Assembly (NCBI GenBank): GCA_002841275.1
Contig: PHET01000017.1
Location: forward strand, 1 to 51,635
Reading direction: 5' to 3'
Length of the DNA stretch: 51,635 nucleotides
Source: Actinobacteria bacterium HGW-Actinobacteria-7
Lineage (GTDB): Bacteria; Actinomycetota; Coriobacteriia; Anaerosomatales; PHET01
Shown: one piece after another, positions 27,182-38,177 of the stretch
Layout of the letters: each line of letters begins with the position of its first letter
How positions within the stretch are numbered: position 1 is the first letter of the stretch
The notes under the pieces: generated by a model
The model's database searches: none
What the model saw: the letters and a program-made list of their open reading frames with translations, nothing else
Told to the model about the DNA's origin: nothing
Translations under genes and position numbers: made by a program

Positions 27182-27268
27182 GACAGCGACCCGAACGCGG
27201 TCGAGTCTTCTCCGCCACGACGCTATCCGGCGCTCGTGAGCCATGAAAGACCGAAAGGGAACAATACT

Positions 27269-28615
27269 GTGACTGCACGTGCGAAGCGCGCCTCAAAGGC
27301 CGCGCAGCTTCCTGTTGGCGACGTCGTTGAACTGTTCGCTGGCGTTGGCGGATTCCGCTTGGGACTCGAAGGCAAACCAGAGTTTTGGCGTGCCCCTGGC
27401 GATGAGCCCGGCCAGTGGAGAGTGACGTGGTCGAACCAGTGGGAGCCGAGCACAAAGACCCAGCACGCCTTTGATTGCTACGCCGAACGGTTCGAGGACG
27501 GCACCCACTGCAACGAAGACATCGCCCAGGTGAGTGTCGATGACATCCCCGAGCACCAGTTGCTCGTCGGTGGGTTCCCATGCCAGGACTACTCTGTCGC
27601 GAAGCCCTTGAACCAGGCGCACGGCATCCAGGGACGCAAGGGAGTTCTCTGGTGGGAAATCCACCGCATCCTCGAAGCCAAGCAGCCCCAGTTCGTCATG
27701 CTCGAGAACGTCGATCGACTGCTCAAGTCTCCAGGCAGCCAGCGAGGGCGCGACTTCGCGATCATCCTCGCGACCATGTCTGACCTCGGCTACCTGGTCG
27801 AGTGGCGCGTCATCAACGCCGCCGAATACGGTTTGCCTCAGCGTCGCCGTCGTGTGTTCATCATCGGGCGCAAGGTCGACAAGGCCTTCGCCAGTGCGGG
27901 CTTCGACGGCTTCGACTGGATCACATCACAGGGGGTGCTGGCCAGAGCGGTTCCCTGCACATCGCCCAACGGAACGGCCGAGCACGAGCGCGACTTCGTC
28001 ATCGAAGGCGAGCCCCACGAGGTATCTGAACATTTCGGTGCTGGCAGGAAGCTGAGCCAGTTCCTCAACGCCGGCGTCATGTTGCGCCGTGAGGTGTGGA
28101 CCCGCAAGGTGGTAGCTGACTACGACGGCCCGCTCAGTCTGCTTTCGTCGGTCCTCCTCCCAGAGTCCGAGGTGCCTGACGAGTACTTCATCGCACCCGA
28201 GAGGCTCGGCGACATCGATTCCCCCAAGCCAGGAACATGGCGCTATCTGAAGTTCTCAAAGAGCGAGCAGCGCACTCACAAGGGCAGTGGAACGACATAC
28301 CTCTACACCGAGGGCGGTCTCCCCTTCCCCGACCCAATCGACAGAGCAGCACGCACGATTCTGACCGGAGAAGGTGGAACGGCTCCCTCGCGCTTCAAGC
28401 ATGCAATCGCGACCAGCGATGGACGGTTCCGAAGGTTGACTCCGGTTGAGCTAGAGCGGCTGAACGGCTTCCCAGACAACTGGACCGAGGGGATGTCGGA
28501 CGGCAAGCGCGCCTTCTGCATGGGAAACGCGCTCGTTGTGGGCGTTGTCGAGCGCATCGGGCGAGTACTGGCTGACGACCTCACCGCGATGAAGGCCGCC
28601 GTTCCGGGCAAGTAG
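27269..28615 (+). CDS. DNA (cytosine-5) methyltransferase 1
   Basis: 448 residues from GTG 27269 (AAAGGGA 8 nt upstream); GTG 27236 in the same frame lacks an RBS. C5 motifs in order: ELFAGVGGFRLGL (SAM site, motif I), FPCQDYSVAK with catalytic C105 (motif IV), LENVDRLL (ENV, motif VI), LPQRRRRVFIIG (motif VIII), target-recognition region about 215-370, and GNALVVGVVERIG (motif X). Modifies cytosine at C5. Likely partner of the divergent BglII-type enzyme. First gene of the plus-strand operon; the next gene starts 5 bp after its stop. Confidence 0.88.
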   Translation: MTARAKRASKAAQLPVGDVVELFAGVGGFRLGLEGKPEFWRAPGDEPGQWRVTWSNQWEPSTKTQHAFDCYAERFEDGTHCNEDIAQVSVDDIPEHQLLVGGFPCQDYSVAKPLNQAHGIQGRKGVLWWEIHRILEAKQPQFVMLENVDRLLKSPGSQRGRDFAIILATMSDLGYLVEWRVINAAEYGLPQRRRRVFIIGRKVDKAFASAGFDGFDWITSQGVLARAVPCTSPNGTAEHERDFVIEGEPHEVSEHFGAGRKLSQFLNAGVMLRREVWTRKVVADYDGPLSLLSSVLLPESEVPDEYFIAPERLGDIDSPKPGTWRYLKFSKSEQRTHKGSGTTYLYTEGGLPFPDPIDRAARTILTGEGGTAPSRFKHAIATSDGRFRRLTPVELERLNGFPDNWTEGMSDGKRAFCMGNALVVGVVERIGRVLADDLTAMKAAVPGK

Positions 28616-28620
28616 TTCCT

Positions 28621-29049
28621 ATGCCCCGACTGCCAACACCGCCGCCTGCATCATCTCCTGCGATTCGCAAGACGATGCAGGGGAATCGCGGCAAGAACAC
28701 GAAGCCCGAACTCCATCTACGCCGACTGCTCCGCGAAGCCGGCTACCCGGGCTACCGGCTTCATTGGAAGAACGCGCCAGGACATCCCGACATCGCCTAC
28801 CCGGGGCGGAAGGTCGCGATCTTCGTGAACGGTTGCTTCTGGCACCGATGTCCGCTCTGCAAACCACCAATGCCAAAATCGAACAACGAGTTCTGGGAGG
28901 CGAAATTTGCGGCCAACCAAGACCGCGACCTACGGCAGACCGAGAAGCTTGAATCGACCGGCTGGACGGTACTCGTACTCTGGGAATGCCAACTGAAAGC
29001 CCATCCCGGCGAGGAGGTTGCGCGTGTTGTCCATGCCCTACATGGTTAG
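28621..29049 (+). CDS. vsr: Very short patch repair endonuclease (Vsr)
   Basis: 142 residues. It contains [40 protein letters not shown] and GCFWHRC, the Vsr signature including the catalytic Asp of HPDI and the His residues of FWHRC. Vsr nicks next to T:G mismatches left by deamination of 5-methylcytosine, so its place between two C5 methyltransferases is functional. Start ATG 28621 is 5 bp after the upstream stop with a poor RBS, suggesting coupling to it. Confidence 0.92.
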
Positions 29050-29108
29050 ATTCAAGTTGGAACACTGTCAGACCGAAGTGTCATCCTTCCCACCGAAGGA
29101 GGCCACAT

Positions 29109-30224
29109 ATGTCAGCCCTGGCTCTGAGCGCTCAACCCCCTATACTCTGTGAAGAACGCCCCGGGTCATACGTCCCGGGTCAACTCGACCTGATCGGAAG
29201 CATCCGCGTGCCTCACTGGGACATCGCGGGCGAGCTATGCACGCATCGCCCGTTCACATTTGTCGATCTCTTTGCCGGCATCGGCGGCTTTCGCATGGCG
29301 TTCGAATCCCTAGGGGGCGAGTGTGTGTTCTCCTCGGAGTGGGACAGTTACGCAGCTGCCACCTACTGTGCGAACTTCGGCGAGACCCCCTTCGGCGACA
29401 TCACACTCCAAGAGACTCAGTCTCTGATTCCGAAACACGACCTACTGTGCGCCGGATTCCCCTGCCAACCTTTCAGCCTCGCGGGCGTGTCTAAGCACAC
29501 TTCACTGGGCCGAGAGCATGGCTTCGCGCATCCGACGCAGGGGACACTGTTCTTTGAAGTCGCGCAGGTCATCCGAGACCACAATCCGTCGATGTTCATT
29601 CTTGAGAACGTCAAGAACCTCGTCGGCCATGATCACGGCCAGACCTTCCGAATCATCATGGATACTCTGGTGGATGAGCTCGGTTATGACGTCACCTGGC
29701 AGGTAGTCGATGCCGCCGCACTGGTTCCGCAGCATCGTGAGCGCGTGTACCTCGTGGGGTTCCGTAAGCCCACTGAATTCTCCTTCCCTCAGCTACCCGC
29801 TGATGGACCCAAGCTCGGCGCAATCCTCGACCGCAGAGTGGACCCGAAGTACACGCTTAGCGACAAGCTCTGGGCCTACCTTCAGGCATACGCCGCGAAG
29901 CACCGCGCTGCAGGAAATGGCTTCGGTTTCGGCTTGGCAAACCGCGCCGGAGTATCACGGACCCTCAGCGCTCGATACCACAAGGATGGCTCTGAGATCC
30001 TGATTCCGCAGCGTGGTAAGAATCCCCGTCGGCTCACCCCACGTGAGTGCGCGCGCCTGATGGGTTTCCCGGAGGATTTCCAAATCGTTGTGAGTGACAC
30101 TCAGGCGTACAGGCAGTTCGGGAACTCCGTGGCAGTGCCCGTTGTCGCGGCGATTGGCGACGCGATGCTTCACGCCTCCCAAGCCACTGAGCACGGCACG
30201 AAGCAAGACGAGAAGTGCGCCTGA
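29109..30224 (+). CDS. DNA (cytosine-5) methyltransferase 2 (Dcm-like)
   Basis: 371 residues from ATG 29109 with AAGGAGG 5-6 nt upstream. Motif [15 protein letters not shown], motif [13 protein letters not shown] with C119, the [12 protein letters not shown] segment and LENVKNL typical of Dcm/ScrFI-type enzymes, [12 protein letters not shown], and [14 protein letters not shown] at the end. These resemble methyltransferases of CCWGG/CCNGG-type systems. It is followed after 1 bp by an MvaI/BcnI-type nuclease gene, its natural partner, and preceded by vsr. Site specificity is inferred only from family and context. Confidence 0.88.
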
Positions 30225-30225
30225 G

Positions 30226-31532
30226 ATGAACCTCGACGCGCTGATGACCATGATGCGCGACCAAGGTGCAACCCGCCTGTACTACAAGCCCCTCGCGGCG
30301 AACGACAACAGCAAGAACCAGTACTACTTGGGACCGAGTCTCGACGCACTGAACGTCCTTCCGACGGGACCCACCTTCGCCGAGGTCGGCAGCCACGGCA
30401 AGGCCATTCTCAAGGCGCCGGTGAATCTCTTTTGGTTGACCGACGATGGCTCGCCATGCCCGGCCCCGAAGGCACAAGTCATCTTCTACCCGCAGTACCC
30501 GGAGGTTCGGCTAGGATCGCTGTCCGCCTCGTGCTCAGCAGCCCCCAAGGCGATGCTGGCGAGTAGGAATCCCGGAAGGATCATCCTTCTCGGCATAACG
30601 ACGGACAACCGCATCCTAGCTCGTCTCATTGGGCCCGATGATACCGCTCGAGCGGAACTTCTCAGCAAGTCACCGGTGTCGGTCGTCGGCGTTTTCACAG
30701 AGATCGACACGGGCCAATCCCCTCGCGAGGAACTCCTCACGGCTCTTCGGCGGATCGCGGATGCTGGCTGGCACGACGCGTCACGACTCGACTCAAACGG
30801 CAACATGCTCCCGTGGTTGGAACAAACTGCGGCGGGTTCACCCTTGAAGCGGCTCTAGGCGTACGGCCGAATTCAATCGCCGGCCCCGACTTCGCCGGTT
30901 GGGAGATCAAGCAACACGGGGTCAGCAATCTCGAGCGCCCACACAACGGCACACTTACCCTCATGACGCCCGAGCCGGATGGAGGCTGGTACAAGGACCG
31001 AGGAGTCGAGTCATTCATCCGAACATTCGGATACGAAGACACACTCGGGCGGGTGGATCGCCTCAACTTCGGTGGCCACCACAATGTCGGGAGCATCAAC
31101 AACCGGACCTCGCTCGGGCTCGCGCTTGTGGGCTTCGATTCGGTTCGATGCCGGATTTCTGATGCGGCAGGCTCGCTCGACCTGGTGCGAGCCGACGGCA
31201 CCATCGCCGCAAGTTGGAGCTTCGCCAAACTGCTCAACCACTGGCGCAAGAAGCACGCGCGCGCAGCCTACATTCCTTCGTTGAGGCGCACCGGTGAGGT
31301 GATCGCCTACAGCTACGGTCACAAGGTGTGTCTCGGTGTTGGCACCAGCTTCGAGCTTCTGCTTGGGGCGCTCGACCGGGGTGCGGTCTTCTACGATCCG
31401 GGCTTGAAGCTCGAGCACGCGGCTTCCGCGCACCCCAAGACGAAGCGGAGAAGCCAGATCCGCGTCGGCTTCAACAACTTACCGGACTTGTACGACACGT
31501 TTGAGTACGTGGACATACGCTTACCCAGCTAG
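30226..31532 (+). pseudogene. MvaI/BcnI-type restriction endonuclease, frameshifted
   Basis: The gene begins at ATG 30226, 1 bp after the methyltransferase stop. The first frame (LYYKPLAANDNSKNQYYLGP, QVIFYPQYPEVRLGS) ends at TAG 30858; the second frame, open from about 30805 to 31532, continues the family (GTNCGGFTLEAALGV, PDFAGWEIKQHGV, TLMTPEPDGGWYKDRGV, RLNFGGHHNVGS). A -1 shift (one base missing) at about 30805-30825 separates the parts, just before the catalytic PD...ExK in PDFAGWEIKQ. Rejoined, it would be about 435 codons, near normal family length. Known members cut CCWGG or CCSGG. As read, the enzyme is inactive. Confidence 0.8.
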
Positions 31533-32640: not shown

Positions 32641-33198
32641 CTATGAATCGGCCGCCAGTAGCTCAGTGACGTGCGCGCAGTACCCCGGGGCGTGCAGTGC
32701 CACGACACCGAGGAGCTCTCTGGGTGACAGCGGTGGGTTCCTGAGAGCCGAAGCCGCCCGCAGGACAACCATGACCATCGCCTCAGGATCCTCGCCCAGC
32801 AGCTGTAGCAAGAACTGGTCGGGCGTCATGACAATCGCCCGCGTGTGGACATCCACGGTCGACTGGGGGAAGTGACGGACGTTCAATGTGACGATCGTTG
32901 ACGCGTGGCTGGCTATGGCGGCCGCGACGACATGCGAGTCGTCCGGATCCGGCAGCTGCGCTGTCAGACGATCTATCTCAACCCAGGCCTCGGGAAACGC
33001 AGCGGACATCAACTCCTGAAGACGAACGAGCCTCTCCTGCGGGATGTCCGGCCGGTTCCTCGAGAGCGCGGAGAGCATCTCGGAAAGGATGCGCTCGGAC
33101 CAGATCGGCGCGAAGAACCGCGCCTCAGCACAGCGCAAGAGGATGTCCCTAAGCGCGGCCGGATACAGGACACACGCGTCCAGTACCACGCGCTGCAT
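32641..33198 (-). CDS. PIN-domain toxin-like protein
   Basis: 185 residues. VVLDACVLYPAALRDILL holds the first Asp, IWSERILSEMLSAL the Glu, LPDPDDSHVVAAAIAS the central Asp pair and TIVTLNVRHFP the final strand of a PIN RNase. It starts ATG 33198, overlapping the stop of the upstream gene in TGATG, the usual toxin-antitoxin coupling. The last 50 residues are an extra helical tail. Predicted to cut RNA; target unknown. Partner is the 136-residue DNA-binding protein encoded upstream. Confidence 0.85.
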   Translation of the reverse strand: MQRVVLDACVLYPAALRDILLRCAEARFFAPIWSERILSEMLSALSRNRPDIPQERLVRLQELMSAAFPEAWVEIDRLTAQLPDPDDSHVVAAAIASHASTIVTLNVRHFPQSTVDVHTRAIVMTPDQFLLQLLGEDPEAMVMVVLRAASALRNPPLSPRELLGVVALHAPGYCAHVTELLAADS

Positions 33199-33608
33199 CA
33201 GTACATCCCCAGGTCCTGAGACTCGGCCGCCAATCCATCGAGCGCCTTGCGCCGCAGCGCATCACGGTTGCGGCGATAGGCGATCACGTCGCCAACATCC
33301 ACTCGCCGGTGGGTGCCTACCTTGTAGTGCGCAATCTCACCCGCATCGAGCATCTTGATCAGGTGCGGGCGAGACACGCCAAGGATGTCGGCGGCTTCCT
33401 GCGTGGTCAGGTCGTGTGCCACCACAACTAGCGTCGCGTCCCGGCCTTCGGCGACTATCGAGAGCGCCTCCTCGGCAACGCGATATACCTGCTCCGGCGC
33501 ATCTGAGTCGACGCCGTGTTCGTCTGTGACGGTAATCCGCACAGTGCCTGCCATGTCGGCCCTAGAGTGGTCCACGGCTGGGTCGCCCTGGTGCGTATCG
33601 CTCATCAT
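33198..33608 (-). CDS. Excisionase-type HTH antitoxin
   Basis: 136 residues; two ATG codons at 33608 and 33605 follow GGGAGG. An N-terminal segment VRITVTDEHGVDSDAPEQV is followed by an excisionase/MerR-like helix-turn-helix LTTQEAADILGVSRPHLIKM and wing AHYKVGTHRRVDVGDVIAYR. Such proteins neutralise and repress the PIN toxin encoded in the next, overlapping gene. Its promoter lies within four 9-bp direct repeats at 33634-33669. Confidence 0.85.
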   Translation of the reverse strand: MMSDTHQGDPAVDHSRADMAGTVRITVTDEHGVDSDAPEQVYRVAEEALSIVAEGRDATLVVVAHDLTTQEAADILGVSRPHLIKMLDAGEIAHYKVGTHRRVDVGDVIAYRRNRDALRRKALDGLAAESQDLGMY

Positions 33609-34318: not shown

Positions 34319-34596
34319 CCGCCCACCTCTTCGCCATCGTAACCGCCGATTCCAAACCCCGGCCTGGTCTCTCCAAGCACCATGTCCTCAACCTGCGCAG
34401 TGACCTCTAGGTCGCACGACGCATCCTGCTCGTCATCTGGCGCGGTGTCACACTCGCCTCGGCTGCTACCAGCCGGATTGGCGAACTCATCAGGTACTGC
34501 TGGCCGCTTGCTATCCGCGGGGGGTTGCCCATCGAGATCCTCTGCGAAGTCGATATCTTGTTCGTCTCGCATGTCATGCCCCGATTCATTGATCAT
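34315..34596 (-). CDS. Small acidic hypothetical protein
   Basis: 93 residues, strongly acidic (DEQDIDFAEDLDGQPP; DDEQDAS; YDGEEVGG) and probably disordered. Start uncertain: ATG 34596 lacks a clear RBS; ATG 34572, with GGGG 6 nt upstream, is an alternative. It overlaps the upstream triple-HTH gene by 11 bp and likely is co-translated. Its acidity suggests a DNA mimic or a mask for the basic HTH partner, which is speculation. Confidence 0.4.
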   Translation of the reverse strand: MINESGHDMRDEQDIDFAEDLDGQPPADSKRPAVPDEFANPAGSSRGECDTAPDDEQDASCDLEVTAQVEDMVLGETRPGFGIGGYDGEEVGG

Positions 34597-35209
34597 CTGG
34601 TCGGCGGGTAGGAGCTTCCGGACTCAGTCCGGGGCGCACCGCGCCGATGTCAGGTTCATACCCTGATCCCGACGCCTCGACCGCCGCCCAGGTCTTGCCC
34701 CGCGCGATCGCTAACACCGTCGACGCCGACACGCCGAACTCCGCGGCCACCTTGCGCGACGATGCTCCCTCGGCCAGCCGCTGCTTGATCTCGGCGACTT
34801 GCGGCGCGGCAAGCGCCTTGCCCTGTTGCGGCTGCTCAGCGAGCCGGGCGGGTAGCCCCGAGCCTAGCTCGGCCCACGCGTGCCCGTGCTTGATTGCGCT
34901 CACCATGCTGGGGCTGATGCCGAACTCCTCGGCGATCTCTCGCCCGGAACGTCCGGCTTCGAGCGCCTCGATGACCCGCTGCGCGCTCGCGGCGTCCAGC
35001 GTCACGACCGGGGCCACCGCCTGCATCTTGGCGCGGAGTTCCTCGTCAATCGCGTCGGCCCAGCGCTTGCCGCTCTTGATGGCACCCACCGTCTGGGCGG
35101 AAACCCCAAACTGCTCGGCAATCGCAGTGTGGTGCTCTCCTGCCACTATGCGCTGAGCGATCGCCCGGGCCTGGTCGGCATCGAGCTTCCCTCGCACGGC
35201 ACCGCTCAC
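34586..35209 (-). CDS. Protein of three tandem helix-turn-helix repeats
   Basis: 207 residues (GTG 35209; start is tentative). Three repeats of about 45 residues occur at about 9-54, 71-115 and 133-177, each with the pattern A-x-I-A-x-x-F-G-V/I-S-x-x-x-V-x-A-I-x-x-G-x-x-W-A: for example IAEQFGVSAQTVGAIKSGKRW, IAEEFGISPSMVSAIKHGHAW and VAAEFGVSASTVLAIARGKTW (each residue run here is a single repeat core). Such units occur singly after HNH homing nucleases. No nuclease domain is present. A modular DNA-binding protein is the likely role. Confidence 0.7.
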   Translation of the reverse strand: MSGAVRGKLDADQARAIAQRIVAGEHHTAIAEQFGVSAQTVGAIKSGKRWADAIDEELRAKMQAVAPVVTLDAASAQRVIEALEAGRSGREIAEEFGISPSMVSAIKHGHAWAELGSGLPARLAEQPQQGKALAAPQVAEIKQRLAEGASSRKVAAEFGVSASTVLAIARGKTWAAVEASGSGYEPDIGAVRPGLSPEAPTRRPDDQ

Positions 35210-35257
35210 CCTGCGACCCGGCTCTTCTCGGCGAGTTTGTGCGCCTTCTTCCGGCCC

Positions 35258-35407
35258 TCAGAGAAAGGAGATCGGCGAGATGATGATCACGGCGGCCATG
35301 AGGCCGTTGATGAGCTTGTCCGACCAGTCGAACCACGCCGTACCGGCGTAGTAGATGAGCGCGATTCAAGCCACCAGCGCCACGACGCGCACAATCCATT
35401 TCAGCAT
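35258..35407 (-). pseudogene. Small membrane protein with in-frame TGA
   Basis: ATG 35407 follows GGAGGGGG at a good distance and encodes MLKWIVRVVALVA, then TGA at 35368-35366, then, in the same frame, IALIYYAGTAWFDWSDKLIN and GLMAAVIIISPISFL to TGA 35258. Read through, it would be a 49-residue protein with two hydrophobic segments. The stop falls in the middle of the first helix, so the gene is either broken or the base is wrong. It would have been the first gene ahead of the triple-HTH gene. Confidence 0.5.
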
Positions 35408-35513
35408 GCCAAACGCCCCCCTCCGGTGGGAATGTACCCGCCTATGCCGAGTGTCGGCGCCGGCGCCTGGGCCTTCGGCGCATCCGTACGCACAGGAGCG
35501 GTGAACTAGGCAG

Positions 35514-37439: not shown

Positions 37440-37464
37440 GTTAGTCATACCAGAGGTGATTCCC

Positions 37465-37761
37465 ATGGCCAAGACCACAGTGTCCATTCCCGATGCCTTG
37501 CTCGCAGACATCGACCTCCGAGCCGCCCGCGCCGGCACCACACGCAGCGGCTTCGTGCAGGAGGCGGCCGCACGCTATATCACGGCGCTTGACGCCGAAC
37601 AGGCCCGCGTCGAGCGCAAGGATCGCATCGACGGTGCCATAGCGAAGATGCGAGTGGTCGCCGCACAGATGCCGGAAGGTACCGACGGGACTGCGATCAT
37701 CAGGCAGTTCCGCAACCTGCCCGAGCCATGGCTCAAGCCCCACAAGGACGCCGAGAAATGA
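37465..37761 (+). CDS. Ribbon-helix-helix antitoxin
   Basis: 98 residues from ATG 37465; AGAGGTGA lies 5 nt upstream. AKTTVSIPDALLADIDLRAA is the beta strand and first helix of a CopG/HicB-type RHH DNA-binding dimer, GTTRSGFVQEAAARYI the second helix. The C-terminal half is charged and should bind the toxin. Overlaps the PIN gene as ATGA. Confidence 0.85.
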   Translation: MAKTTVSIPDALLADIDLRAARAGTTRSGFVQEAAARYITALDAEQARVERKDRIDGAIAKMRVVAAQMPEGTDGTAIIRQFRNLPEPWLKPHKDAEK

Positions 37762-38177
37762 GCGACGCCGTACCGGTCTTCGTGATAGACAGCTCGGTGG
37801 CCTACAAGTGGTTCAGCTCCCGAGAAGAATCGCGCGTGAGCGAGGCGCTCGAACTGCTCGCCGGACACGCCGCGGGAGAGCTGCTTCTGGCCGCCCCCGC
37901 GCACATGCCGGCCGAGGTAGTCAACGGGCTTCGCTACTCGAGGATCGATGCAGCGGCCGTGCACACCGCGATCGAGGGCCTCAGTGAGGCTGAGATCGTG
38001 ACTGTGCCACTCGACACCGAGCTGCTGTCCTCGGCGTTGGATCTCGCGCTTGCCTACGACCTCACGATGCATGACGCGCTGTTCCCGGCACTCGCCGTCA
38101 GGCTGGGATGCGAACTCGTGACCGCTGACCGAGCGCAGGCCCGTGTTTCCCAGTGCCCGGTCCGGCTGCTGGCATAG
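37758..38177 (+). CDS. PIN-domain toxin (VapC-like)
   Basis: 139 residues from ATG 37758, overlapping the antitoxin stop. FVIDSSVAYKWF carries the first Asp, HMPAEVVNGLRY the Glu, YDLTMHDALFPALA the third acidic residue and LVTADRAQARV the T-x-D strand: a complete PIN RNase set. With the RHH antitoxin it forms a type II toxin-antitoxin module. Confidence 0.88.
   Translation: MSDAVPVFVIDSSVAYKWFSSREESRVSEALELLAGHAAGELLLAAPAHMPAEVVNGLRYSRIDAAAVHTAIEGLSEAEIVTVPLDTELLSSALDLALAYDLTMHDALFPALAVRLGCELVTADRAQARVSQCPVRLLA

Follow-up and report, generated by a model that had tools for sequence, protein, structure and literature searches.

A conserved family of stand-alone proteins with three tandem resolvase-type helix-turn-helix units in Anaerosomatales-like genomes

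The window analysed here, a stretch of DNA of 51,635 nucleotides from an Anaerosomatales-like genome (G000), carries a small gene for a protein made of three tandem helix-turn-helix (HTH) units that are joined by two linkers (Table 1). Orthology begins near residue 8, and the exact start of the gene is uncertain. The gene is overlain on the plus strand by two open reading frames (34647-35156 and 34880-35509), which are shadow frames, because most of the differences between orthologues lie in third codon positions of the minus-strand frame. Comparison of the orthologues gives dN/dS values of 0.23-0.29, indicating that the triple-HTH gene is real and subject to purifying selection; it is a genuine, selected gene of a few related bacteria. 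Just upstream, 48 bases away from the start of the gene, ends a small minus-strand open reading frame (35258-35407) that resembles a small membrane protein and is broken by an in-frame TGA at 35366-35368, with MLKWIVRVVALVA before and IALIYYAGTAWFDWSDKLINGLMAAVIIISPISFL after the stop. This reading frame was considered as a conserved upstream gene and rejected, as no similar DNA lies upstream of the orthologues. Elsewhere in the window, a type II restriction-modification locus (27236-31532, plus strand) consists of two C5-cytosine methylases and, after them, a restriction endonuclease of the MvaI/BcnI family, and a PIN_3 protein with an HTH_17 partner forms a toxin-antitoxin-like pair (32641-33608, minus strand).

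Table 1. Positions of the triple-HTH gene, of the units and linkers of its product, and of the decayed copy of the gene in genome G028
Feature	Position	Strand	Description
Triple-HTH protein gene	34586..35209	-	207 aa, GTG start
HTH unit 1, residues 9-53	35051..35185	-	recognition helix around SAQTVGAIKS; modelled helices 11-22, 27-34, 38-45
Linker 1, residues 54-70	35000..35050	-	conserved, DxELRARM-like; modelled within helix 50-64
HTH unit 2, residues 71-115	34865..34999	-	recognition helix around SPSMVSAIKH; modelled helices 73-84, 89-96, 100-107
Linker 2, residues 116-132	34814..34864	-	LDPELPSRLA...GKAL common to orthologues; low-confidence in model
HTH unit 3, residues 133-177	34679..34813	-	recognition helix around SASTVLAIAR; modelled helices 135-146, 151-158, 162-169
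Decayed triple-HTH gene in G028	L014 7850-8330		two large deletions and a two-base insertion (frameshift)

Several Pfam HTH families, among them HTH_7 (resolvase), HTH_23 and HTH_28, each match the protein three times. The best of these is HTH_7 (E = 4.7e-13), whose score of 49.5 bits over the three stretches exceeds the gathering cut-off of 23.8 bits and places the units in that domain family, and no HNH or GIY-YIG match was found among the 25 best Pfam families. Pairwise alignments of the units score 93, 92 and 86 against shuffle means of 24-27 (z = 14.5, 12.4 and 11.8), a similarity of about 12-14 standard deviations above shuffles, and the repeats are therefore not a product of chance. An earlier, sequence-only reading of this DNA had recognized three tandem HTH repeats in one small protein, with which both the Pfam matches and the unit scores agree. 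It had given the repeats a length of about 45 residues, which is that of the HTH itself, whereas the repeats in fact recur about every 62 residues, since a conserved linker of about 17 residues follows units 1 and 2. The invariant core that it had proposed is roughly right, but units 2 (IAEEFGISPSMVSAIKHGHAWA) and 3 (VAAEFGVSASTVLAIARGKTWA) deviate from it, and the residues that all 12 units of the four orthologues have in common are just L, G, A, G, S, A, I and G. The pattern that can be relied upon for the unit is [IV]AxxFG[VI]SxxxVxAIxxGxxWA.

Modelling with AlphaFold2 from the single sequence, with no alignment, predicted three helices for each unit with a core pLDDT mostly of 70-90, and a placement of the units relative to each other that is not confident (pTM 0.28). 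Fold prediction had been put forward as a check on the earlier reading, which was to be given up if the repeats were not predicted to fold as HTHs; in the model, an HTH is predicted in each of the units. The HTH of the Sin recombinase (2r0q_D) can be superposed on one of the units to within 0.4 A across 36 columns, with a sequence identity of 39%. The fold search returned no whole-protein match at E<0.001, and its top three matches, which are weak, include the Tc3 transposase (1u78), the HTH of which is bipartite, and a CRISPR-repeat-binding protein (2lvs), both of them multi-HTH DNA-binding proteins. A profile search of the PDB with the whole triple-HTH protein yielded no match.

Orthologues that retain exactly three units and the linkers, at 65-74% identity, are encoded in genomes G032, G020 and G026, all three of them members of the order that includes the window's genome but placed in families other than its own. 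In G028, an Anaerosomatales MAG and a close relative of G020, the gene is decayed; the deletions have taken out most of unit 1 and a segment that starts at the end of unit 2 and reaches into unit 3, while the neighbours of this copy are still about 95% identical to those of G020, and this copy demonstrates that the triple-HTH gene can be lost. The gene or its remnant is found in 5 of the 69 genomes of the order, a profile search of 398 genomes of the class added none to these five, and a 396-genome sample of the phylum had the gene in the window's own genome only. Scans of genome contigs for homologues gave none in the first instance and only the decayed copy in the second. The triple-HTH proteins constitute an unannotated, conserved family in Anaerosomatales-like genomes. 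A frame of 166 residues in another genome (G041, L054 1360-1860) appears, from its sequence, to consist of nothing but two HTH units in tandem and is, in its architecture, a stand-alone two-unit relative.

Each carrier genome has the gene in a different place. In the window its neighbourhood includes a Fic-family gene and a PIN/HTH pair; it adjoins an ABC1 kinase gene in G026 and a DUF427 gene in G032, and in G020 it is situated between a membrane dipeptidase gene and a large gene that we take, from its sequence, to encode a phosphoketolase. At the loci compared, DNA similarity between orthologues does not extend much beyond the coding sequence and no neighbours are common to the orthologues, so that no regulon is indicated. 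A ribbon-helix-helix protein followed by a putative PIN-type toxin reading frame forms a further toxin-antitoxin-like pair in the window (37456-38177, plus strand), and G020 and G028 have relatives of this pair, 40-47% identical, in the vicinity of their triple-HTH loci. Patchy occurrence and differing positions hinted at horizontal transfer; however, the dS of the triple-HTH gene (0.74-1.07) equals that of the other genes common to these genomes (0.68-1.07), and there is therefore no sign of recent transfer. Inheritance with repeated loss fits as well, differential loss and rearrangement being sufficient to account for the distribution.

Across genomes, the recognition helices of units 2 and 3 are 90% identical and those of unit 1 are 70% identical, whereas different units share only 47-54% identity in this helix. 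Such conservation within units and divergence between them favours three different sub-sites that together make one composite site, although it could partly reflect constraints of the fold. HTHs can bind proteins as well as DNA. The preferred reading, to which we assign a probability of roughly 0.7, is that the triple-HTH protein is a stand-alone, sequence-specific DNA binder whose three units would engage a composite site, in the capacity of a regulator or an architectural protein. One HTH unit would have been duplicated to yield three units of the Hin/Sin-resolvase type, and the resulting protein would act in trans by binding a specific DNA sequence, its three units probably lying along the DNA, each reading a different short sub-site within one long asymmetric site, with the conserved linkers setting the spacing of the units. 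As there is no catalytic part, the protein most likely acts by occupying DNA, and the outcome may be that of a repressor or other regulator, or that of a local architectural protein. The idea that the repeats read one long site had been advanced before, and it is made plausible by the recognition helices and by the precedent of CRISPR array binding protein 1 (Cbp1), a protein in which the three HTH domains, products of duplication, have been shown aligned along one CRISPR repeat (PMC10883916). The site itself did not come to light, as no upstream motif or operator shared among the orthologues rose above shuffles.

A second account, possible but clearly less probable, holds that the protein is what remains of a homing-type phage nuclease, of the HNH or GIY-YIG kind, after loss of the nuclease domain: its DNA-binding tail, now domesticated as a binder or in decay. 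The dN/dS of the intact copies shows that they are not simply decaying, even though the copy in G028 has decayed as this account would have it. The best PHROG match of the protein is an HNH endonuclease family (phrog_59, 3.4e-17), and most of the phage and plasmid matches examined combine an HNH_3 or GIY-YIG domain with two to four units of this kind; yet the four orthologues have no nuclease domain, no extra domain and no remnant of a nuclease at the N-terminus. The sequence-only reading had noted that single copies end HNH nucleases, and this is borne out by L023 and L024, in which an HNH_3 domain is combined with a single HTH unit, the phage and plasmid proteins having theirs in tandem. Its suggestion that a nuclease partner be sought near homologues led nowhere, since none of the five genomes in which the intact or decayed gene occurs has an HNH_3 domain, and no neighbouring gene recurs among the orthologues. 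The units show a similarity of no more than 25-50% to those of phages, and an HTH of the same type occurs in a serine resolvase of the order, so that these resemblances do not reveal which way descent ran. An origin of the family from a nuclease tail is possible.

It is quite unlikely that the protein is of the Cbp1 type and coats a repeated DNA element, be it a CRISPR array or a dispersed or transposon repeat. The layout is the same, three HTH domains and nothing else, and the weak fold match to 2lvs points in this direction, as does a weak match (2.4e-4) to the NCBIfam family of Cbp1 (NF040595), but the latter, at 21.1 bits, stays far below the curated cut-off of 140 bits, which leaves the protein outside that family. 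Whereas cas1 is present in G032, it is absent from G000, G020, G026 and G028, and a CRISPR link of the triple-HTH protein was rejected on this ground. Given the distance to the cut-off and the lack of cas1, the protein is Cbp1-like at most in sitting on DNA. Very unlikely, finally, is a two-component element in which the protein would supply DNA binding to a nuclease or transposase whose gene lies at another locus. Units of this type are characteristic of recombinases, transposases and nucleases, but the triple-HTH gene has no conserved neighbour, DNA similarity ends at its edges, and its unexceptional dS gives no sign of recent mobility.

If the composite-site reading is true, the triple-HTH family would be a compact natural case of modular DNA reading by enzyme-free tandem HTH units of the resolvase type, set in a poorly studied bacterial order, and a kind of DNA-reading tail known from phage nucleases could stand as an independent regulator. 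If it is false, the family adds one more small, unannotated DNA-binding protein.

Among known systems, the serine resolvases and invertases (HTH_7; Sin, 2r0q) resemble the single unit in both fold and sequence, but in these enzymes one HTH is joined to a recombinase domain, whereas here three HTHs stand alone. The phage homing-type nucleases of the HNH_3 and GIY-YIG kinds (phrog_59 and phrog_6156), such as Myxococcus phage Mx9 p93 and Burkholderia phage BcepSauron gp070, carry one to four copies of the same kind of unit at the C-terminus, and the units of the phage HNH proteins often end in G-x-x-W, as do those of the triple-HTH protein; unlike the triple-HTH family, these phage proteins have a nuclease domain. 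More distant is phrog_664, a phage "DNA binding protein" whose profile matches two tandem units (1.8e-16). Cbp1 of the Sulfolobales shares with the triple-HTH protein its small size and a composition of only three HTH domains derived by duplication, but is archaeal, whereas the triple-HTH protein is bacterial and its host genome is without cas1. An unlikely but more far-reaching reading of this likeness is that the family is a bacterial analogue of Cbp1, a nuclease-free ruler of three HTH units that would have evolved independently, perhaps from the tails of phage homing nucleases, to read a long, asymmetric site composed of one sub-site for each unit, and that would serve in the Anaerosomatales as a general or repeat-coating regulator of the chromatin type.
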